Shown: positions 3,680 through 15,787 of the stretch, piece after piece
How the letters are laid out: each line of letters opens with the position of its first letter
Position numbering within the stretch: the stretch's first letter is position 1
Source of the DNA: Magnetospirillum moscoviense
GTDB lineage: Bacteria > Pseudomonadota > Alphaproteobacteria > Rhodospirillales > Magnetospirillaceae
Direction: 5' to 3'
Assembly (NCBI RefSeq): GCF_001650635.1
Contig: NZ_LWQU01000138.1
Coordinates: forward strand, 1 to 38,086
DNA length: 38,086 nucleotides
Made by a program: the position numbers and the translations under genes
Notes under the pieces: generated by a model
The model's database searches: none
Told to the model about the DNA's origin: nothing
What the model saw: the letters and a program-made list of their open reading frames with translations, nothing else

Positions 3680-3954
3680 GCTTTGGAGAACCGTCAACTT
3701 TTCGGCCAGGGCCCGCATCTCATGCTGGGGATAGGTTGCCGAGGCTTCCAAGACGAAGACGTGGTCGGCGCACGGCTTGACAGGAATCGAACAGCAACCC
3801 ATCCTGAAGTTCTGGCCTTGGGGCCATCGTGTCTGGTTCAGACCGCCTCCGGCGCATCGCCGGGATATGCCCAGGCCACTTCCCCGCGACGACCATCTCG
3901 GCGCCCCTGGTGGCGCGACCTCGCCCTTGTGGGCCGCAACGGAGACTCGTGGAC
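3680..3954. other. 275-bp intergenic region before selD, nothing recognised
   Basis: This lies between the bacterioferritin terminator and the selD start. It presumably carries the selD promoter, but no convincing -35/-10 pair, operator or RNA gene is visible. Frames open through it on both strands run into the terminator or the bacterioferritin genes antisense, and do not look coding. Confidence 0.5.
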
Positions 3955-5004
3955 ATGTCCGAACCCGTCAAGCTCACCAGCTTTTCCCATGGTGGCGGCT
4001 GCGGCTGCAAGATCTCCCCGGCCGTGCTCGAGCGCATCCTGGCCGAGCTGCCCAAGGACGCCCTGCCCTATCCCGGCCTGCTGGTCGGCCTCGAGAACGG
4101 GGACGATGCTGCCGTGTACGATATCGGCGGCGGCCAAGCGATCGTCGCCACCACCGACTTCTTCATGCCCATCGTCGATGATGGTTACGATTTCGGCCGC
4201 ATCGCCGCGACCAACGCCATCTCGGACGTCTATGCCATGGGCGCTCGCCCCATCCTGGCCCTGGCGATCTTGGCCATGCCGATCGAGAAGCTGCCTGACC
4301 AGATCATCCGCGACATCGTGCGCGGCGGACTGACCGTCTGCCAGGCCGCCGGCATACCGCTGGCCGGCGGGCATTCGATCGATTCGGTCGAGCCGATCTA
4401 TGGGCTGGTGGCGCTGGGCCTGGGCAAAACCGAGCACATCAAACGCAACGACAAGGCCCAGGCCGGCGACGTCCTGGTGCTGGGAAAGCCCATCGGCGTC
4501 GGCATCCTGTCGGCGGCCCTGAAGAAAGGGAAATTGTCGCCCGAGGGCTATCGCACCATGGTCGACGTCACTACCCGTCTCAACACCCCCGGTCCCGATC
4601 TGGCGGCGCTGGACGGCGTCAGGGCGATGACCGACGTCACCGGTTTCGGCCTGCTGGGCCATGCCTTTGAGATGGCGCGCGGCGGCAAGCTGACCGTTCG
4701 CTTGAAGGCCAGCCGGATTCCGGTGATCCCCGAGGCCGGGCAACTGGCCCAGGCCGGCATCGTCACCGGCGCCTCGGGCCGCAACCTGACCAGCTACGGC
4801 ACCAAGGTCTCGGGCCTCGACCTTTTGCCGCAATGGCAAAGCAACCTGCTGACCGACCCGCAAACCAGTGGCGGCCTTTTGGTGTCATGCAGCCTGAACG
4901 CCGTCAACGAGGTGCTGGCCATCTTCCGCGAGCACGGCTTCGCCGATGCCGCCATCGTTGGTGACCTGACCGCCGGTCCGGCCATGGTCGCGGTGGCGGG
5001 TTAG
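3955..5004 (+). CDS. selD: selenide, water dikinase (selenophosphate synthetase)
   Basis: The 349-aa protein makes selenophosphate from selenide and ATP, the selenium donor for SelA-made Sec-tRNA. The N-terminal active segment SHGGGCGCKISP carries the conserved Cys and Lys (C16, C18, K19, matching E. coli C17 and K20); the position that is Sec in some homologues is Cys here. Further marks are the nucleotide-binding stretch GDDAAVYDI, TDFFMPIVDD, AGGHSID and the C-terminal LTDPQTSGGLL. The start at 3955 is chosen because MSEPVKL aligns with the family; an in-frame extension to 3829 is rejected. It is convergent with, and separate from, the fdn/sel operon, so selenium supply is transcribed independently of selA-selB-selC. 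Confidence 0.95.
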   Translation: MSEPVKLTSFSHGGGCGCKISPAVLERILAELPKDALPYPGLLVGLENGDDAAVYDIGGGQAIVATTDFFMPIVDDGYDFGRIAATNAISDVYAMGARPILALAILAMPIEKLPDQIIRDIVRGGLTVCQAAGIPLAGGHSIDSVEPIYGLVALGLGKTEHIKRNDKAQAGDVLVLGKPIGVGILSAALKKGKLSPEGYRTMVDVTTRLNTPGPDLAALDGVRAMTDVTGFGLLGHAFEMARGGKLTVRLKASRIPVIPEAGQLAQAGIVTGASGRNLTSYGTKVSGLDLLPQWQSNLLTDPQTSGGLLVSCSLNAVNEVLAIFREHGFADAAIVGDLTAGPAMVAVAG

Positions 5005-5013
5005 ATCCGGGCA

Positions 5014-5079
5014 GCGCTTCGCGCATAAAGCCCGCGCGGCGACTGAGCGAGCCCGGCACGGGCCGCGCTCCGCGCATAA
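5014..5079. repeat. short direct repeat between convergent selD and gcvH-like genes
   Basis: GCGCTTCGCGCATAA (5014-5028) recurs as GCGCTCCGCGCATAA (5065-5079), 14 of 15 identical and 51 bp apart. Each copy can fold a small GCGC-containing hairpin. It lies between two convergent stop codons (5004 and 5086). It may contribute to bidirectional termination, but there is no T-run. Confidence 0.35.
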
Positions 5080-5085
5080 CCCCAT

Positions 5086-5481
5086 TCAGGGTCCACCACA
5101 TTCGGCCAGCCCCGATGCCAGCAGGGCGCGGGTGGCGTCGGGATCGTCGGCCAGGATCGCCACCATCCAACCTTGGCCGAACGGGTCCTGGTTGATCAGT
5201 TCGGGCCGGTCGATGGGGGCCTCGTTGGCCTCGACGACTTCGCCCGAGAAGGGAACGCGCACCGCGCCCACCCACTTGCCGCTTTCTACCGTGGCGATGG
5301 AACGCCCGGCCTCGGCCCGGCCGCCGACCCGCTTGGGCATGAAGGCGACCAGATCGCCGACCGTCTTGGCCCCCAGGCCGGTGATGCCGACGCGGAACAG
5401 GCCCGGCGCTTCCTCCTTGAACCACATGTGGCGGCCGGCATCGTAGAAACGGTCGGCGGGGAAGTCGAAGGTATTGACCAT
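5086..5481 (-). CDS. GcvH-like lipoyl carrier protein
   Basis: This 131-aa protein has the size and fold pattern of glycine cleavage H protein. The lipoylation motif is visible as ATVESGKWVGAVRVPFSGEV, with K69 as the expected attachment site (ESVKA in canonical GcvH). VRVGITG-like and INQDPFGQGWM segments match the flanking strands. No gcvT or gcvP gene is nearby, so glycine cleavage is not its obvious role. GcvH-like lipoate-binding proteins also serve sulfur pathways (LbpA of the sHdr system), where DsrE-like proteins and dedicated lipoate ligases are neighbours. Here such neighbours sit upstream, but no HdrABC-like genes are seen. The ATG at 5479-5481 shares one base with the preceding TGA (TGATG), so translation is coupled. 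This is the last gene of the operon. Confidence 0.8.
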   Translation of the reverse strand: MVNTFDFPADRFYDAGRHMWFKEEAPGLFRVGITGLGAKTVGDLVAFMPKRVGGRAEAGRSIATVESGKWVGAVRVPFSGEVVEANEAPIDRPELINQDPFGQGWMVAILADDPDATRALLASGLAECGGP

Positions 5482-5858
5482 CAGAAGGTCAGCACCCGGC
5501 AATTGTCGTCCATCAGGTCGGCGACATATTCGGTCACCGCCGCCAGCCCGTCGCATTCGGGGATCAGGTCGTCGGGCCCCAGACCGTGCAGGTCGGCGGT
5601 AGCGGCGCAAAGCAGGAACCGAGCGCCGGCCTTCTTGGCCATCTTGATGAAATCATAGGCGGTCTTACCCGAATCGGCTTTCAGGACCAGAGCCTCGGCC
5701 ACCCCTTTCTTCATCAAGATACCGGGCGCTCCGGTAAGAACAACATCGACCTCGCAATCCATCGAGGCGGCGACGGCGGCCTGGAACAATGGCGCGCCGA
5801 CCTCGATCGGCCGATCGGGATCGGTATTGGCCAGCAGCACGACAAGCTTAGTCGGCAT
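5481..5858 (-). CDS. DsrE-family protein
   Basis: This 125-aa DsrE/DsrF-like small protein belongs to a cytoplasmic family that often carries persulfide on a conserved Cys. The start MPTKLVVLLANTDPDRP is set by GGAG just upstream and by homology; the 32-residue extension upstream overlaps the previous gene and is rejected. Cysteines are at about 35, 84, 102 and 120. C84 (FLLCAATADLHG) is at the usual DsrE position after the central strand. The start lies within the end of the lipoate-ligase-like gene (11-bp overlap), and the stop touches the gcvH-like start. Sulfur-transfer function is inferred from the family, not proven by the sequence. Confidence 0.75.
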   Translation of the reverse strand: MPTKLVVLLANTDPDRPIEVGAPLFQAAVAASMDCEVDVVLTGAPGILMKKGVAEALVLKADSGKTAYDFIKMAKKAGARFLLCAATADLHGLGPDDLIPECDGLAAVTEYVADLMDDNCRVLTF

Positions 5859-6600
5859 CCAAATCTCCGGTTTCCAGGAAGTGTTCGCCGCCCAATGGTC
5901 CGGCGAGCAGTTGGGCGGCGTCTTGTTCTTCCGGCGAAGCGATCTCGCCAGCATAGGGCGTGAAGCCCAGCGAGGCCATGCCGTTCGTCACCGCGTCCTT
6001 CACCGCCTCGAAGGACGGGACCTGACCCAGGATGGCGCGCAGGCTGGTGACCCGCTCGGCGACCCCTCCGGCGCCGTGGCGGGCCAGCTTATCGGCGGGC
6101 GGGGTCAGCACGTCGGCCATGCGGGCGATGTCGGCATCGATCAGCAAGGTGCCGTGAAGAAGCATGATGCCGTCCTCTGCATAGCCGGCGGTGCCGCAAA
6201 TCTTGCGCCCCGCGACCTCGATGTCGTTGCCGGGCCGGAAGCGGGCCGCCACCCCCAGACGCTCGAGCCCGGACGCCACCGCTTCGCACACATGGGCCGT
6301 CATCTCGGGCAAGGGTGCTCTCGCCGCCATGACCACTTCCCAGCAGATTTGCCTGGGATCGATATAGACGGCGCCGCCACCGGTCAGCCGGCGAGCCAAT
6401 TCCACCCCATCGGCCCGTGACAGATCGACTTCGGCGGTCAGGGATTGATGACGGCCGATCAGCACCGTCGGCGGAAAGCGGAAGAATCGCAGCGTATCGG
6501 GCGAAGTACCGCGCCGACGCCCGGAAACCAGCGCGGCCCCGAACGCCATGTTGGCCCGCGCCCCACGAAGGCCGCTATCGATGACGCGCAACTGGGTCAT
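5848..6600 (-). CDS. lipoate-protein ligase A family protein
   Basis: This 250-aa BPL/LplA-fold protein shows RRLTGGGAVYID (about residues 70-81), the hallmark lipoate/biotin-ligase loop. It also has GRKICGTAGY with K133 at the catalytic lysine position, and HGTLLIDAD (149-157). The natural substrate is probably the GcvH-like protein encoded two genes downstream; this is inferred from the operon. The ATG (6598-6600) overlaps the selB-frame TGA (6597-6599) as ATGA and lies 2 nt after the CCA end of selC. No ribosome-binding site can precede it except inside the tRNA gene. The start is supported by homology (LRVIDSGLRGARANMAF). Translation may depend on ribosomes that read selB through the tRNA sequence. 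Confidence 0.85.
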   Translation of the reverse strand: MTQLRVIDSGLRGARANMAFGAALVSGRRRGTSPDTLRFFRFPPTVLIGRHQSLTAEVDLSRADGVELARRLTGGGAVYIDPRQICWEVVMAARAPLPEMTAHVCEAVASGLERLGVAARFRPGNDIEVAGRKICGTAGYAEDGIMLLHGTLLIDADIARMADVLTPPADKLARHGAGGVAERVTSLRAILGQVPSFEAVKDAVTNGMASLGFTPYAGEIASPEEQDAAQLLAGPLGGEHFLETGDLDAD

Positions 6601-8594
6601 GATGGCGGAAGGGAGTGGGAGTCGAACCCACCAACAGCCGGCGACCGACCGTTTCCGGATTTGAAGTCCGTCCGCCCCACCAGGGACGATTCCCTTCCAT
6701 CAAACGTTCCGAACAGCGTCAGACGGTCCGTGCGCACCTTGCGCTGGTCGTCCCTGCGGATGGTCAGTCCGACGCGATCGAAGTACTCGAGTATTTGTAT
6801 GGCAACCTTACGCCCATTGTCGAGCCGGTCACGGAACTCGGCCGCGATTATCCAGCCATCCTTGGCGGCCTGTCCACATTCGGCGACGATCTGGGCCATT
6901 TCGGCCACGACCGGACGCAGGAAATAATGATCCTGGGCGATCAACACCACCTTGCCCATGCGGGCCAGCCGCTTCATCAGCGCCCGCATCTCGGCTTCCG
7001 GGGTCCCCAGTGCCTGGGCCAGATCGCGCACCCTGGGCGGACGAAAGCGATTGCCATCCGACAACAGGGGAAGCGCCTCTTCCCACAACAGCTCGTCGGC
7101 GGACGACAGGCGCACCTGATGGGTGGGCAGGCGCAGCCACGGCCCGTCCTGAGCCACGGCGCCGTCGGCCACCGCCGCCTCGACCAGGCATGCGACCAGA
7201 TCGACCGGCAGCTTGGGACCGAGCGCCGAACGCAGCCTTGGCATCTGCAGTCCCGGCTGGTCGGCATTGGCTTCATGATAGGCGCCAAGAACGCCCAGCA
7301 GACGCTGATTGAATTCGGCCCAGGACTGGCTTGAGAAGCCAAAGCGGCCGACGCTCACCAGGCCGGGAACCGACAGATCGGGCCGGTTCCATTGCATGCG
7401 GTATCGCTCGAGATCCACCCAACCGGGATCTTGCGCCAGCAAGGCGGCCAAACCGTTTCTGGGATCGCAATCGGCCAGAAGGCGCAGCTCGGCCAGGCGG
7501 GCCGGGGTGCGGCGCCCTCGCGCGGGGGGAAACAGGTCGATGACCCGGCCGCCGCCGATGGTGCGTCTGGCCGACTGATCGCGCAGGATGAAGCGGTCGC
7601 CGGCCAGGGCGCCGATGGGGCGTTCCAGCACCAGCTGCACCAGGCCCGATGCGCCGGGAGCCAGGCTGTCGGCCTCCAGCAAAGCGACGCGGGCGGGCAC
7701 ATGGGCGGCGCCCAGATGCAGATGCACCGGCGTCCAGTGGGCCAAGCCGCGAGGCTCGCCCGGCAGCAGGCGGAAGGTCGCGTCCATCCGGCTGACCGGA
7801 AGATGCAGGGCGGGATCAAGCACCCATTCGCCGCGCAGAATGTCGTCCTTGGACAATTGCGGCGCCGCCAGATTCAAGGCCAGACGCTGCCCGACCTCAC
7901 CGCTTTCGGCCTTGCGGTTCTGGGCATGCAGCGAGCGGATGCGGACCTCGCGCCCCGATGGCGACAGCAGCAACCGGTCACCGACCGCCACCCGCCCGGA
8001 AAAGGCGGTCCCGGTCACCACCACGCCGGCGCCCGACAGGGTGAACGAACGGTCCACGGCCAGACGAAACCGCCCACTCACCTCGCGCCCGATCGCGGCG
8101 GCAGCCTGCGACAGGTGGTCGGCGACACGATCCACGCCGATCCCGGTTCGGCTGGAGACGGCGAGGATGGGGATGTCGGCCAAAGAGGTGCCGTCCAGCA
8201 GCGCCCGCACTTCGGCCTCGACGGCGGCCAGGCGGGGCGGGTCGGCCAGATCGGCCTTGGTGATCGCCACCAGACCGCGCGACAGCCCAAGCAGGTCGAG
8301 GATGTGAAGGTGTTCCACCGTTTGCGGCATCGCACCGTCATCGGCGGCCACCACCAGCAGGGCGAAATCCAGCCCCGAGACGCCGGCCAGCATATTGTGG
8401 ATGAAGCGCTCGTGGCCCGGAACATCGACGAAGCCCATCACGCTGCCGTCGGGCATGGGCAAATAGGCGAAACCGAGATCGATAGTGATACCGCGCGCCT
8501 TTTCCTCGGCCAGCCGGTCGGCATCCACGCCGGTCAACGCCCGCACCAGCGCGGTCTTGCCGTGGTCGATATGGCCGGCGGTGCAGACGATCAT
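6597..8594 (-). CDS. selB: selenocysteine-specific elongation factor SelB, frame extended through selC
   Basis: This 665-aa GTPase delivers Sec-tRNA to UGA codons next to a SECIS hairpin. Visible are G1 GHIDHGKT (7-14), G3 DVPGHE (57-62), ITKADL for base recognition, then EF-Tu-like beta-barrels. Winged-helix repeats at the C-terminus bind SECIS; the last reads [21 protein letters not shown]. Homology should end near TLFGTF. The frame then stays open and its last 33 residues (633-665) are exactly the selC tRNA-Sec sequence, ending in a TGA that overlaps the next ATG. The start (8592-8594) overlaps the selA stop as ATGA. The tail may be a neutral read-through; RNase P/E processing of the tRNA would remove the stop codon from the message. 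Confidence 0.95.
6603..6698 (-). tRNA. selC: tRNA-Sec (anticodon UCA)
   Basis: Read on the minus strand, this is a 96-nt gene including an encoded CCA (6603-6605). The acceptor arm has 8 bp (GGAAGGGA at 6698-6691 with UCCCUUCC at 6614-6607) and the discriminator is G. The T arm is a 5-bp stem GTGGG/CCCAC around TTCGACT. The anticodon loop is CUUCAAA with anticodon UCA at 6664-6662, and the variable arm is long and GC-rich. The 8+5 bp stem and UCA anticodon are diagnostic of bacterial tRNA-Sec. The whole gene lies inside the 3' end of the selB reading frame. Confidence 0.97.
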
Positions 8595-9949
8595 GCCAGC
8601 TGCGCCAGAAGGGCCGTCTCGTCCTCGAGACAGCGCAAATCAAGCCACAGGGCGCCGTCGGCGACGCGGCCGATCACCGGGACCGGATGCTCGCGCCACT
8701 CGGCCGCCATTTGCTCCAGCCAGCGCCCTTCCGAGCGGATCGGGGTCACGGGCCGCATCACCAATGCCCAGCTGGGCAACAGATCGACCGGCAGGGCACC
8801 GCTGCCGATCTGGCTGTGGCAGGCTTCCAGGGTGACCCGGGCCTTGCCGTCCATCGCCGCCTGGACAGCGGGCAGCAGCCGTTCGCCCAGGGCCTTGATA
8901 TCGTCGGCCTTGCGGGTCAGCAGCCGAAGCGTCGGCAGCCGCTCGGCCAGTCGGTCGGGATCGGCGTAAAGCTTCAACACCGCCTCCAGCGCTGCCAGCC
9001 GGATCTTGTCCATGCGCAGCGCCCGCTTCAGCGGGTTCTTCTTGATCCGCGCGATCAGATCCTTGCGGCCGACGATGATACCGGCCTGGGGACCGCCCAG
9101 CAGCTTGTCGCCGGAAAAGCTGACCAGATCGGCGCCCTGGGCCAGGGTCTCGCGCGGGGTCGGCTCGTGCGGCAGGCCATAGCGCTCTAGATCGATCAAC
9201 GAACCGGCGCCCAGATCGACCAGGAACGGCAATCCGTGATCGTGCGCCAGCTTGGCCAATTCCGCCTCGGCCGGCTGGGCGGTGAAGCCGATTACCGCGT
9301 AATTGCTGGTGTGCACCTTCATCAGGGCGGCGGTCTTGGGGCCGATGGCGGCTTCGAAGTCGCGCAGGTGGGTGCGGTTGGTGGTGCCGACCTCGCGCAG
9401 GCGGGCCTGGGCCCGGCTCATTACCTCGGGGATACGGAAGGCGCCGCCGATTTCCACCAACTCGCCGCGGCTGACCACCACTTCGGCCTTGGCCGCCAGG
9501 GCGTGCAGCATCAACAGCACGGCACCGGCATTGTTGTTGACCACGGTGGCCGCCTCGGCGCCGGTCAGGCGGCACAGCCAATTCTCGACCAGATCATCGC
9601 GGTCGCCGCGCTTGGCCCGGCCGAGGTCGAATTCCAGCGGAATGGCCCCGGTCATGGCGGCGGTGGCGGCCTCGACCGCTTCCATGGGCAACGGCGCCCG
9701 GCCCAGATTGGTGTGCAAGACGGTGCCGGTCAAGTTGAAGACCGGCCGCACCCGCGGGCGGTGGCGGTAATCCAGGATGGCGGCAGCCGACACCACCACC
9801 TGCCCGACATCGGCGGTGTGGCCGGCCTGACGCAAGGAATCGAGCGCCTCACGCACCGCCGACACGGTATCGTCGCGGCCGAAGCGGTCCAGCAGCGGTG
9901 CTGCATCCGGCGCGGACAGGACGGCGTGGACGGCGGGAAGCGGACTCAC
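8591..9949 (-). CDS. selA: L-seryl-tRNA(Sec) selenium transferase
   Basis: The 452-aa PLP enzyme converts Ser-tRNA-Sec to Sec-tRNA-Sec with selenophosphate. The PLP lysine is in [14 protein letters not shown] (K282), and [16 protein letters not shown] (72-88) is the conserved N-terminal core. Length agrees with E. coli SelA (463). The start is GTG at 9947-9949, overlapping the fdhE stop as GTGA. The longer frame upstream of it is fdhE read out of frame. The stop overlaps the selB start (ATGA). Placement inside the formate dehydrogenase operon ties Sec synthesis to production of its main client. Confidence 0.96.
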
Positions 9950-10866
9950 CCGCCCCCCGCCTGCAGGAATGGATTGGCCACAGCACGGTGCCAGTTCTCC
10001 TCGGCCAGACGCAGATCCAGCCCGACCGTCGCCAGATCGTCGGCGAAGGGCTCGGCGCCGGGCGACTTGGCCTCGTCGAACAGCTTGAGATAGGTGCGGC
10101 AATCGGAACAGGTCTCGCCGCGCACATGGCCGGCCGGCCCCTCGAAGGCCAGATAGGCGATGTCCTTGTCGGACCCGCAGGACGAACATTGCGCACGCGG
10201 ATAATGCCAATGGCAACCGCACAGGCCGCAAGCCAGATAGCGCACCCCTTCCAGCGGCTCGGCCGCCATGGTCAGGCCCGCCACCGGAGCCGAACCGCAG
10301 ACCGGGCACAGGCCGGGCGGATCGAGCGGCTGGATGGTCGCCGGATCAAGGCCGGGCAAGGCCTTGGCCCAGAACACCTGCAGCGCCGCCAAGACGAACA
10401 ATCCCCGCGCCAGATCGTCGGGCGCGGCCTGGCCGGTCAGGCAGGCGGCGGCCAGCGCATCCTGCTCGGGCGCCGGCATGGCCGCCAACTGCTCGATCAC
10501 CGATCGCGCCGCATCCGGCAAAGGCTGGGCGGCGAAGGCGTCAAGGATGGCCGCCAAGGCCAGGCGCCAATCGTTGGTCAGATACGACGCCTCACGCGGC
10601 AGCAACGGCATGCCGGCGGCGCGACGCCGCGCGATGATGGCTTCGGCGGGACACGGAACGTCGCCCAAGGCCTTGACGGCACGATGCTGGGCGGCGGCCA
10701 GATGGGACAGGAACGCCAGATACTCGCCCATCGGATGATCGTCGGCCCAGGCGGCAAGACGCCGGGACCTGCGGTCGAACATCAGCGCGGGATCGGGCAG
10801 AAGGACGACCGGGGGCGGTACGGTCGTTCCGCCCCCGGTCTGCAACGTTTCGGGACTGTCGCTCAT
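9946..10866 (-). CDS. fdhE: formate dehydrogenase accessory protein FdhE
   Basis: This 306-aa cytoplasmic maturation factor is needed for activity of respiratory formate dehydrogenases. Four CxxC pairs typical of FdhE are visible: C187/C190, C213/C216, C227/C230 and C253/C256, forming rubredoxin-like metal sites. The start overlaps the fdnI stop (ATGA) and the stop overlaps the selA GTG. No signal peptide is seen, as expected for a factor that acts before Tat export of the catalytic subunit. Confidence 0.95.
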   Translation of the reverse strand: MSDSPETLQTGGGTTVPPPVVLLPDPALMFDRRSRRLAAWADDHPMGEYLAFLSHLAAAQHRAVKALGDVPCPAEAIIARRRAAGMPLLPREASYLTNDWRLALAAILDAFAAQPLPDAARSVIEQLAAMPAPEQDALAAACLTGQAAPDDLARGLFVLAALQVFWAKALPGLDPATIQPLDPPGLCPVCGSAPVAGLTMAAEPLEGVRYLACGLCGCHWHYPRAQCSSCGSDKDIAYLAFEGPAGHVRGETCSDCRTYLKLFDEAKSPGAEPFADDLATVGLDLRLAEENWHRAVANPFLQAGGG

Positions 10867-11516
10867 TTACGTCCGCCGACCTCCTCACGCAAGAATCGGC
10901 GATGATGCTTCCACAGCCAGCCGCCGGTCACCGGCCCGCGCGTCATGGCGCGGACCGAACCGGCGTTCCAGATGGCGGCATAGATGTGGATGATCATGGT
11001 GATGATCATCGCCGCCGCCATCACGGCATGCACCAGTCCGGCGAAGCGCTGCAGCCCGATGGGGAAGGCATCGCCGAAATAATGCTGCCACAGGACCAGG
11101 CCCGACAGGAAGAGGGTCACCACCGACCAGAACATGACGTAGAAGACCAGCTTCTGCGCTGCGTTGAACCGGCCGGCCTCGGGGACCTTGTCTTCCCGGT
11201 GGTTGATGACGTCGCCGACATGGCTCATCCATTCGCTGTCTTCCTTGGTCCAGATGTTCTGGCGGAAGAAACGGATGCCCATGAAGGTAAAGGAAATGGC
11301 CAGCACCACCCCGATCCACGGATGGATCGCCCGGGCCGCCTGGCCGCCGCCGAACAGGGCGGTCAGCCAGAAGAAGACCGGATGGAAGAAGGCCAGACCC
11401 GACAGCATCAGCAACAGAGCGCAGACCACCACCAGCCAATGATTGGCCCGCTCGCTGGGATTGTAGCGGGTGTAGGTGTCGCGGACGACCGCGACCTTTT
11501 CGGTGCTCGTCGTCAT
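10863..11516 (-). CDS. fdnI: formate dehydrogenase-N gamma subunit (cytochrome b556)
   Basis: The 217-aa membrane protein has four predicted hydrophobic helices (about residues 24-45, 60-80, 120-142, 155-178). Histidines suited to two b hemes include the one in [15 protein letters not shown] and those in the third and fourth helices ([29 protein letters not shown]). It takes electrons from the beta subunit and reduces quinone in the inner membrane. Both ends overlap neighbours by 4 bp (ATGA). Length matches E. coli FdnI (217 aa). Confidence 0.94.
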
Positions 11517-12412
11517 GCCGCGTCCCTCCCTTTGAGCTTGCGGGCGTTCTCTTCATCCGCCTCGGTGACCTCGTTCGGGCCCTTGGTGACGAAGTGGAAC
11601 AGACCAGCCAGCAACGCCATGCCCATGCCGATCATCGACAAAGGCTTCAACGCCCCCTTCCACAGCGCCACCATCGGGCTGATTTCGGGGTTGTTGGGCA
11701 GGCCGGAATACAGTTCCGGCCGGTCGGCGTGGTGCAGGACATACATGACGTGGGTGCCGCCCACGCCCTGCGGGTCATAAAGACCGGCCTTGTCGTAGCC
11801 ACGCGATTGCAGGTCCTTGATGCGGCCCTGGGCGTGATCGACCATGCTTTCCTTCGACCCGAACACGATGGCTCCGGTCGGACAGGCCTTGGCGCAGGCC
11901 GGGCTCTGGCCGACGGCCACCCGGTCCGAGCAAAGGGTGCACTTATAGGCGCGGTTGTCGGCCTTCGAGATGCGGGGCACGTTGAAGGGACAGCCCTTCA
12001 CGCAATAGCCGCAGCCGATGCAGTTTTCCTGCACGAAGTCGACGATGCCGTTGGCGTACTGCACGATGGCGCCGGGCGACGGGCAGGCCTTGAGGCAGCC
12101 CGGGTCCGTACAATGCATGCAGCCATCCTTGCGGATCAGCCACTCCAAGCGGCCCGCTTCCTCGTGTTCGGTATAACGCATCACCGTCCACGCGGCCGGG
12201 CCCAGGTTTTCGGGGTTGTCGTAGATGCCGGAATTGACGCCCACATCGGGCCGCAAGTCGTTCCAGGCCATACAGGCCGATTGGCACGCCTTGCAGCCGA
12301 TGCATTTCGAGACGTCGATCAGCTTGGCGACTTCCAGGTCCTTGCGGACCGAAGGAGGTACAGCCGTGCTGGCCGAGCGGTTGCGGACATCCAGGGATTG
12401 CAAACTAGCCAT
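11513..12412 (-). CDS. fdnH: formate dehydrogenase-N beta subunit (4Fe-4S)
   Basis: The 299-aa electron-transfer subunit has four 4Fe-4S clusters: C37/40/43/47, C98/101/106/110, C131/134/137/141 and C158/161/173/177. A single C-terminal membrane helix (about 257-277) anchors it as in E. coli FdnH. It passes electrons from the molybdenum subunit to the cytochrome b subunit. It starts 13 bp after the fdnG stop, with a GGGAGGGA ribosome-binding site in the gap. Its stop overlaps the fdnI start. Confidence 0.95.
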
Positions 12413-12425
12413 TGTCAGTCCCTCC

Positions 12426-15400
12426 CTACGCCGCCGGGCCGATACGCTTGATGTTCACCAGGAACGCCTTGTATTCGGGCGTCTCGGTGTTGGCATCGCC
12501 GACGTATGGAGTGAGTTGGTTGGCGCCGAATCCCTTCTTTGTGGCTCCGATGAAGCCCCAATGGATGGGAATGCCGACGATATGGACAGGCTTGCCATCG
12601 CAAACCAGCGGCCTGATGCGCTTGGTGACCACCGCCTTGGCCTTGATGCGGCCCCGGTTCGACGACACTTCGACCATGTCGCCGGACGCGATGCCCTTAT
12701 CCTTGGCCAATTGCTCGCCGATCTCGACGAACAGTTCCGGCTGCAGGACGGCATTCATCTTGGCATGCTTGGTCCAATAGTGGAAATGCTCGACCAGACG
12801 GTAGGTGGTGGCGACGTAGGGGAAGTCCTCGGACTTGCCGAACACTTCCAGGTCGCCCTTGAACACCCGGGCCACCGGGTTCGATTGAACCTTGGTGTGG
12901 AACGGGTTGGCCACCGGGCTTTCGAACGGTTCGTAATGCTCGGGGAACGGGCCTTCCCGCATCATGCCCCTGGTGAACAGCCGCCCCACCCCTTCCGGGT
13001 TCATGATGAAGGGACCGGTCGCCTTTTGGGTCGGGTCGATCAGCGGCCCGAAATCGGGCACGTCGATGCCCGCCCAGCGGCTGCCGTTCCACTCGATCAC
13101 CTTCTTCTTGGCATTCCATGCCTTGCCCGACGGATCGGCCGAGGCGCGGTTGTACAAGATGCGCCGGTTGGCCGGCCAGGCATAACCCCAATTGGGATGG
13201 ATGCCCTTGCCCGACGGATCGGACGGGTCGCGCCGGGCGGTCATGTTGCCCTTTTCGGTGTAGCACCCCGAATAGATCCAGTTGGCGCAAGACGTGGTTC
13301 CGTCGTCCTTCAACTGGGCGAAGATGTCCATCAGCTCGCCGGCCTTCTTGATCGGCGGCTTGGTGGCATCAGCCGGATCAGGCAGATCCGCCAAAGCCCG
13401 GCCGTTGATCTCGCGTAAGAGCTCGTCGGCGGTCGGCTTGGCCGGATTACGGTAGCTCCAGTCCACATTCATGATGGGGTCCGGGAACTTGCCGCCTTCC
13501 TTGGCGTACAACGCTTTCAGCCGCAGGAACAGGTCCGCCATGATCTGGATGTCGGTCCTGGCCTGGCCCGGGGGCTCCGCCGCCTTCCAGTGCCACTGGA
13601 TGACGCGGCCCGAGTTGGTGAAGGTGCCTTCCTCTTCCGCGAAGCAATTGGTCGGCAGCAGAAATACCTCGGTGGCGATCTTCGCGGGATCGGCGTCGTT
13701 CATCTCGCCGTGATTTTCGAAGAAATGGGCCGTTTCGGTATGAAGCGGGTCCATCACCACCAGATATTTCAGCTTGGACAGGCCGGCGATCAGCTTCTTG
13801 CGGTTGGGTACGCTCATCAGCGGATTGAAGCCCTGGCAGATGAAACCGTTCATCTTGCCCTGGAACATCAGCTCGAATTGCCGCAGCGTGTCGAGGTTGA
13901 CGTCCACCTTGGGCAACCAGTCAAAGCCGAACTGGTTTTCCGCCGTGGCGTTCTTGCCGTACATCGCCTTCAGGAACGAGACGAAGAACTTGCGATAATT
14001 CTGCAAGAACGACATCTGATCGGGCCGAATCGGCTTGAAAGCCCGGGTTTTCAGATATTCCTCGAGCGTGGTCTCCTTGCTGTTGGGCATGGCCAGATAG
14101 CCCGGCACCGAGTTCGAGAACAGACCGAAATCGGTGATACCCTGCACGTTCGAGTGACCGCGTAGCGCGTTGATGCCGCCACCCGGAACACCCATATTGC
14201 CCAGCAGCAGCTGGATGATGGCGATGTTGCGGATGTTCTGCGAGCCCTTGGAATGCTGGGTCCAGCCCAAGGCGTACAGGCTGGTCAGGGTCTTGGCGCC
14301 GGTGGCGGTGGTGGCGATCAGCTCGCACACCTTCAAGAACAGGTCCTTGGGCGTGCCGCAGGTCTTCTCGACCATCTCGGCCGTATAGCGGGAATAATGC
14401 ACCTTCAGCAGGTTGAACACGCAGCGCGGGTTCTCCAGCGTCGGGTCCAGCTTGGCCTGCCCGGCCTCGTCATATTCGTAATCCCAGCTCGAACGGTCGT
14501 AATCGCGCTTCTCGGCGTTGTAACCGCTGAACAGGCCGTCCTCGAAACCGAACCCCTCCTTCACGATGAAGGCGGCGTTGGTATAGGCCAGGACGTAATC
14601 CTTGAAGATCTTCTCGTTGGACAGGAGGTAATGGATGATACCGCCCAGGAAGGCGATATCGGAACCCGGACGCAACGGCGCGTACAGGTCGGAAACCGCG
14701 GCCGTGCGCGTGAAGCGCGGATCGACCACGATCAACTTGGCGCCGTTGCCCGACTTGGCCTCGGTCACCCACTTGAAGCCGCAGGTATGCGCTTCGGCGG
14801 CGTTACCGCCCATCACCAGCACGACATCAGCGTTCTTGATGTCGTTCCACCCGTTGGTCATCGCACCACGCCCAAAACTTGGAGCCAGACTGGCCACCGT
14901 GGGGGCGTGTCAAATACGGGCCTGATTATCGAGCGCAATAATTCCGAGCGAGCGGACCGCCTTGTAGGTCAGCCAGCCGGTTTCGTTGGTGGTGGCGCAA
15001 CCGGCCAGGAAGCCGGTGGTCGGCCAATGATTCAGAGTCTTGCCGTCGTCGCTGGCCTGCTTGAAGTTGGCGTCGCGGTCGTCCTTCATCAGACGAGCGA
15101 CCCGTTCCATCACGAAGTCCCAGCTGACCGGCTTGAAGCCCGCCTCGCCCGCCGCGCGGTGCATCGGCTGCTTGACCCGGGTCTCCGAGCGGATGAAGTC
15201 CAGAAGCGCCGCACCCTTGGGGCACAGCGAGCCACGGTTGACCGGATGGTCGGGGTCGCCCTCGACATGCACGATCTCGGCCTTGGTGTTCTTCGAACCG
15301 TCGCCGGTGGTGTGGATGATGACACCGCAGCTGACCGAGCAATACGGACAGGTGTTGCGGGTCTCGGTGGTTCGCGCCAGCTTGTAGGGCCTGACTTCGG

Positions 15401-15500
15401 CCGCTACCGCCTCCAGGGATCCAAACCCCAGGGCGCTGGCGGTTGTTCCGGCAACGGCGGTCCCGCCTAGCCGGAAAAACTCGCGTCTGTTGATGGTCAC
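12426..15500 (-). CDS. fdnG: formate dehydrogenase-N alpha subunit, selenoprotein (in-frame TGA = Sec197)
   Basis: This is the catalytic molybdopterin subunit that oxidises formate to CO2 in the periplasm. It is about 1024 aa, close to E. coli FdnG (1015). The Tat signal is RREFFRLGG at the N-terminus. The 4Fe-4S ligands are C51, C54, C58 and C93. The frame is split by TGA at 14910-14912 (residue 197, against U196 in E. coli). The flanks [24 protein letters not shown] match known Sec formate dehydrogenases, and a SECIS-like hairpin follows, so this is one intact selenoprotein rather than a broken gene. The GTG at 15498-15500 is chosen because GGGAGGA lies 6-7 nt upstream and it puts the Tat motif at the extreme N-terminus; a GTG at 15518 is also in frame. 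First gene of the operon. Confidence 0.96.
14881..14912 (-). promoter_or_regulatory. bacterial SECIS element and Sec UGA codon in fdnG
   Basis: TGA is at 14912-14910 (minus strand). Eleven nucleotides later a hairpin forms from 14898 to 14881: GGTGGCC, apical AGTCT, GGCTCC, with one mismatch and one bulge. The spacing and the GU-containing apical loop resemble the E. coli fdnG and fdhF SECIS elements that SelB binds. Pairing was done by eye. Confidence 0.8.
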
Positions 15501-15787
15501 GTCATTCCTCCCGTCCACCCGGTGACGTTGGTATCACCAGTTGGCCGTTATCATCTTATAGTCACAGGAGAAAGTGAACCGTGAAATGAAGGCAAAGCGG
15601 CAAATAAGTCATTGTTAATGTTGCATTTGCTAACACCCCGGCCGGGATCAGCCTCAGACATTGTTCGGCTGGGGCGCCAGGCAAAGCAATATCCGAGCGC
15701 CTTCATGCCGTGAAACATAGAGCGTCATTTTTATGAATGGCGGTCGAGAAGTTACTTGTGACTAATTCGCCAACATGACATCTATTC
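15501..15787. promoter_or_regulatory. divergent promoter region of the fdn/sel operon and the exported-protein cluster
   Basis: These 287 bp separate fdnG (minus) from the plus-strand cluster and are AT-richer than the surroundings. They must hold promoters for both. No clear FNR box (TTGAT-N4-ATCAA), sigma-54 site or strong -35/-10 pair is seen. A TATAAG (minus strand, about 15553-15558) could be a -10 for fdnG. TTGTGA near 15756 could be a -35 for the plus-strand cluster. Both are weak. Confidence 0.4.

Follow-up and report, generated by a model that had tools for sequence, protein, structure and literature searches.

A tRNA-Sec gene nested in the selB reading frame of Magnetospirillum moscoviense and its conserved junction with a lipoate-ligase-like gene

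Introduction

What becomes of an RNA that carries a whole tRNA gene inside a protein reading frame is the question raised by the selB-selC locus of Magnetospirillum moscoviense, since such an RNA must choose between two products that work together. The arrangement has a precedent. Mukai 2021 (PMC8124441) described various Alphaproteobacteria, a few Rhodospirillales groups among them, in which the selB ORF takes in the entire tRNA-Sec; in most cases the nested tRNA-Sec is 96 or 93 nt long, in many the selB stop overlaps the next start, and the trait has been lost in some species. Partial selB/selC overlaps were reported there for Gammaproteobacteria and Nitrospirae. In the model of that paper, tRNA processing leaves the selB RNA without a stop codon and the RNA downstream without a leader, which makes SelB and tRNA-Sec alternatives. 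Passages of two later reviews (PMC13188914 and PMC9312934) restate the nested arrangement. The published either/or idea was drawn from sequence alone, and no experimental test of it came up in the open-access literature searched. The running text of PMC8124441 names neither Magnetospirillum nor lipoate (the figures might show otherwise), and the lineage and the LplA-like partner gene described below may be absent from that paper.

Results and Discussion

The selC gene lies within the selB frame

The window is the whole 38,086-nucleotide stretch of DNA that was analysed, and its relevant features are collected in Table 1. A sequence-only reading of it had claimed that the selB frame stays open across the whole tRNA-Sec and its CCA, that the selB TGA overlaps the ATG of a lipoate-ligase-like gene as ATGA, and that SelB homology stops near the tRNA; all three claims are borne out. 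Both ARAGORN and Rfam (RF01852, 73.2 bits at 6607-6698; gathering 47) recognise selC, which is located entirely within selB on the same strand. The first nucleotide of the tRNA is codon position 1 of the selB frame and its length is a multiple of 3; the encoded tail, GRESS...SLPP, is read in phase from a Gly to a Pro. The junction sequence is CCA-TC-ATGA, which puts the start codon of the next gene (LplA-B_cat) 2 nt past the encoded CCA. SelB-wing_3, the last Pfam domain of SelB, ends at residue 619, and in 38 of the 40 un-nested Pseudomonas loci the selB stop comes 6-14 nt ahead of selC. When selC is folded with 60 nt on each side the cloverleaf persists, with pair probabilities of 0.90-0.95 for the first seven acceptor pairs and 0.56 for the eighth.

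Table 1. Features of the selB-selC region (window positions).
Feature	Position	Strand	Details	Source
selB reading frame	6597..8594	-	665 aa	ORF listing
Parts of SelB	within 6597..8594	-	folded part about residues 1-631; tRNA-encoded tail from residue 633	Pfam, AlphaFold
selC (tRNA-Sec)	6603..6698	-	anticodon TCA; 96 nt including encoded CCA	ARAGORN
ATGA	6597..6600	-	selB stop TGA 6597-6599 overlapping lplA-like ATG 6598-6600	
Lipoate-protein-ligase-like gene	5848..6600	-	LplA-B_cat, E 2.8e-46	Pfam
DsrE-like gene	5481..5858	-	next cistron	Pfam
GcvH-like gene	5086..5481	-	lipoyl carrier; next cistron	Pfam
selA	8591..9955	-	TGA overlaps selB ATG (ATGA); start codon unsettled	
Formate dehydrogenase alpha subunit gene	12426..15554	-	in-frame Sec TGA 14910-14912; start codon unsettled	
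SECIS_3 element	14857..14915	-	at the Sec codon; RF01989, 75.7 bits	Rfam
selD-like gene	3829-5004	opposite	AIRS domains	Pfam

The recognised genes over 5086-15554 are all on the minus strand, in the order formate dehydrogenase alpha subunit, FdhB, cytochrome b, FdhE, SelA, SelB with selC inside, LplA-like, DsrE-like and GcvH-like. Because an ATGA links selA to selB as well, such an overlap is not peculiar to selC. Another TGA near the 5' end of the formate dehydrogenase alpha frame is probably upstream of the true start. Across the genome RF01852 picks out a single clear tRNA-Sec; its second-best match (53.5 bits), a candidate for another, is a tRNA-Ser. As far as these two top-scoring matches show (weaker ones follow, some at 47.8 bits against the cut-off of 47), the operon's Sec-containing enzyme relies for its tRNA on one excised from within selB. 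The LplA-like/DsrE-like/GcvH-like trio recurs in the same order 0.85-2.1 kb past the selB stop in two other nested loci, L004 and L013, and this recurrence of the genes at 5086-6600 suggests that a lipoyl-carrier system is tied to the formate dehydrogenase/Sec operon.

Survey of selB-selC loci

SelB matches at E 1e-80 or better were obtained in 50 of 385 genomes of the class and 36 of 297 of the order, and in 3/5, 72/76 and 20/43 genomes of three other orders; within the genus, two of the 13 genomes searched (the window genome G000 and G009) reached this threshold. Named SelB loci are the best 80 of 346 confirmed. At most 30 matches per search were taken as loci, and the SelB and tRNA searches together gave 218. 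With the window added, 189 of the loci include the C-terminus of SelB, and 175 differ from one another close to that end. Among these 175, selC is nested in 21 (window included), the selB stop comes before the tRNA in 104 (40 of them Pseudomonas) and inside it in three, one has tRNA-Sec on the other strand, and 46 show no ARAGORN tRNA-Sec within 700 nt (two of the 46 have less than 300 nt there). In L173 the tRNA-Sec lies on the opposite strand just past selB, and its SelB groups with Reyranella-like SelBs. The plasmid search gave partial matches only, and none of 82 records covered 80% of the query.

By hand count, a stop/start overlap with an ORF of at least 70 aa is present in 8 of the 21 nested loci (L014 being doubtful), TGATG in one and neither in 12. 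Two types of short downstream ORF, of about 127 aa and about 155 aa, were found in the other nested loci, and Pfam gave nothing above cut-off for three 60-residue pieces of them.

The junction is conserved in the window clade

The nearest SelBs among the matches listed are those of L001 (genome G009, 76% identity), L142 (G617, 72%) and L143 (G464, 73%). All three loci are nested, with zero spacer between SelB and tRNA and with ATGA at the LplA-like start, although the LplA match of L143 is weaker (33%, from residue 31). A comparison with relatives had been suggested as a check on the junction, and the open frame and ATGA are kept in all four window-clade members found. The distance from CCA to ATG is 2, 14, 17 and 14 nt in the four loci, always 2 modulo 3; because it shifts by multiples of 3, the stop/start overlap survives. 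The conserved phase, zero spacer and ATGA in 4/4 clade members found are more than chance. A selB stop ahead of selC is thus absent from the three nearest relatives but present in 104 of the 175 loci, some of them within clades that have nested members.

An open frame through the tRNA is by itself weak evidence, and was discarded as such, because frame 0 is free of stops in 78 of the 104 un-nested tRNA-Sec genes (frame 1 in 96, frame 2 in 59). This is what would be expected if the overlap were passive, that is, if selB lost the stop that had preceded selC, the tRNA happened to be stop-free in that phase and the tail was tolerated, with selC processed from the operon RNA, enough SelB made and no regulation involved. 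The phase of the nested loci is harder to accommodate in that way: all 21 have tRNA nucleotide 1 at codon position 1, although the spacer takes 10 different lengths between 0 and 78 nt, every one a multiple of 3, and the other two frames of these tRNAs would be open in 16/21 and 19/21. Un-nested loci outside Pseudomonas (n=64) are spread over phases 0/1/2 as 15/23/26. Phase 0 is found in 21/24 overlapping and 15/64 un-nested loci (Fisher p = 5e-8, an overstated value, as the loci are related and Pseudomonas is set aside). The un-nested Pseudomonas loci (n=40) divide 36/1/3, which means that phase 0 may be common to a series of related loci none of which is nested. In L027, L029 and L215, where the selB stop falls within the tRNA, the phase is 1, as if a frameshift came after nesting or the origin was separate. 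Taken with the ATGA kept in 4/4 window-clade members despite changed distances, which also counts against a passive overlap, the spacer multiples of 3 suggest that translation gets to the other end of the tRNA and that this is of consequence; they say nothing on regulation.

The tRNA-encoded tail of SelB

In an AlphaFold model (20 sequences, mean pLDDT 83) pLDDT is below 50 for residues 632-665, starting one residue before the tRNA, and also at 33-40, 60-63 and 70-73 in the GTPase domain. The tail from residue 633 is thus probably disordered, a predicted property that a passive overlap with a tolerated tail would share. Selection on the tail codons was assessed with 96-nt tRNAs ending in CCA (21 nested, 87 of the 104 un-nested). 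The synonymous share of codon differences is 0.279 in nested loci and 0.162 in un-nested loci outside Pseudomonas; drawing 19 of the 29 distinct un-nested non-Pseudomonas tRNAs at random 300 times never gave a value as high, either for this share or for the third-position share, but the difference is not readable as selection, because the share is higher still (0.309) in un-nested Pseudomonas, which are much less diverged.

The start of the LplA-like gene

The LplA-like start had been said to have no ribosome-binding site outside the tRNA, and the anti-SD energies agree: +1.9 kcal/mol for the 20 nt before its ATG, as against -11.8 to -12.9 kcal/mol for fdhE, cytochrome b and fdhB. The comparison set, the other starts of the window's operon, further includes dsrE (-6.6), gcvH (-6.1) and the ATGA-coupled selB (-2.2). 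The three clade relatives give -1.7, -2.5 and -2.5 kcal/mol before lplA, and a clear SD between tRNA and start exists in some other nested loci (L038 -10.3, L028 -7.4, L013 -6.6). Provided that lplA is translated at all, the window clade, with its weak or absent SD, would lean most on ribosomes coming from selB. As to where lplA begins, the ATG is the probable start, since the N-terminus M-x-x-LR-x-ID is kept in all four clade members and none of the four loci has an in-frame start codon upstream of it. A conserved separate promoter was not found in a sigma-70-like scan of 5000-15500, which gave one site against 1.4 expected by chance.

Gain or loss of nesting

A quick SelB tree was built from 126 of the 175 rows, after thinning out the bulk of Pseudomonas and of one Reyranella-like group and removing short rows; all 21 nested loci were kept. 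Nested versus not changes 10 times on this tree, at least six of the changes being forced by well-supported branches, and 11 times on a 67-row tree. The window clade is nested in 4/4 members (100* on the quick tree). A single clade of the window clade and the Rhizobiales-type nested loci is rejected (p-AU 0.005, 41 rows against 26, on a quick tree and with groups picked after viewing it). On these sequence trees, nesting would have been either gained at least twice or lost in the lineages between. Loss is easy, needing just one stop codon, and convergence is for this reason not claimed. Close kin of nested loci can lack the nesting, as some Ancylobacter do, and the selB stop lies before or inside selC in L018, L019, L022 and L027. 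In another member of the window's family (G613, locus L144) selC is un-nested, the SelB groups with the Rhizobiales type and one TGA is reported in the matched frame, which suggests transfer of sel genes.

We think it rather unlikely that same-phase nesting with stop/start coupling arose independently in the window clade, with a different partner (LplA-like, no SD). If it did, convergence would mean selection for an either/or coupling of SelB and downstream proteins versus tRNA-Sec, and the downstream message, with its AUG 2 nt after the CCA, would be left nearly leaderless once the tRNA is excised.

A proposed dual use of the operon transcript

We propose, as a moderately probable reading, that the selB-selC part of a single operon transcript has two uses, yielding either SelB and the downstream proteins or tRNA-Sec. 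The transcript would run from the fdh genes through fdhE, selA, selB/selC and the lplA-like gene to dsrE and gcvH. On some copies ribosomes would read straight through the tRNA sequence, giving SelB a disordered tail of about 33 residues; having terminated at the UGA, they would re-initiate at the AUG that overlaps it and so translate the LplA-like gene, whose start lacks a ribosome-binding site. On others the tRNA would fold, RNase P would cut its 5' end and the 3' end would be trimmed to the encoded CCA. Besides tRNA-Sec this would leave a selB fragment with no stop codon and, downstream, an RNA whose 5' end lies about 2 nt ahead of the lplA AUG. A given transcript would thus yield either SelB plus downstream proteins or tRNA-Sec. 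The single transcript, the processing, the translation through the tRNA and the re-initiation are steps we infer. What had been claimed for one RNA as both message and tRNA precursor stands as to the anatomy, from which it follows logically that excision of the tRNA takes away the selB stop and cuts the downstream genes off; the trade-off between SelB with its downstream genes and tRNA-Sec is plausible, and is not a new reading, since Mukai 2021 (PMC8124441) drew the same inference.

A passive overlap is the better of the alternatives, and we hold it to be possible if on the doubtful side. Nested and un-nested states are mixed within clades and 12 of the 21 nested loci lack an overlapping downstream ORF of at least 70 aa, as a passive origin would have it. 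That un-nested loci are the majority also tells against dual use, and the case for a strong regulatory role is weakened by the absence of nesting in close kin (L018, L019, L022, L027) and by those 12 loci. Very improbable is a promoter of selC's own in the 3' part of selB, which would make tRNA-Sec supply independent of the selB message: the TGGACA-18-GATAAT pair (10/12) about 150 nt upstream at 6876-6847 on the minus strand is the sole sigma-70-like site of a scan that expected 1.4 by chance, and neither hexamer is kept in L001, L142 or L143.

For the dual-use transcript the window clade is a clean test case: spacer and SD before the next gene are both missing and, as far as found, the genome has a single selC. 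Any real re-initiation or competition should be easiest to see there.

Comparison with known systems

The window locus is a further case of a published arrangement and mechanism. As in the systems of Mukai 2021 (PMC8124441), a whole 96-nt tRNA-Sec with its CCA is in frame in selB, the tail runs from Gly (GGA) to Pro at the CCA, the selB stop overlaps the next start, and the either/or model proposed is the same. Unlike that description, the window clade has no SelB-tRNA spacer and its coupled partner is LplA-like and without an SD, whereas the text of PMC8124441 names ORF1 and ORF2 as next genes; presumably these are the ORF types of about 127 and 155 aa in our other nested loci. In Dyella/Luteibacter and Nitrospirae (PMC8124441) selB and selC share sequence as they do here, but the selB stop lies inside selC; in Shewanella/Ferrimonas (PMC8124441) they also share sequence, but antisense, with the tRNA on the other strand. 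The tRNA-Lys in cox1 of Armadillidium mitochondria, as cited in PMC8124441, resembles the present case in that a whole tRNA lies in a protein frame in the same orientation and processing is set against message, and differs in belonging to the compact genome of an animal mitochondrion and to unrelated genes. To the published account this analysis adds the conservation of ATGA with an LplA-like partner in the nearest relatives, controls for phase and openness, a tail predicted to be disordered, and a tree compatible with convergence or repeated loss.
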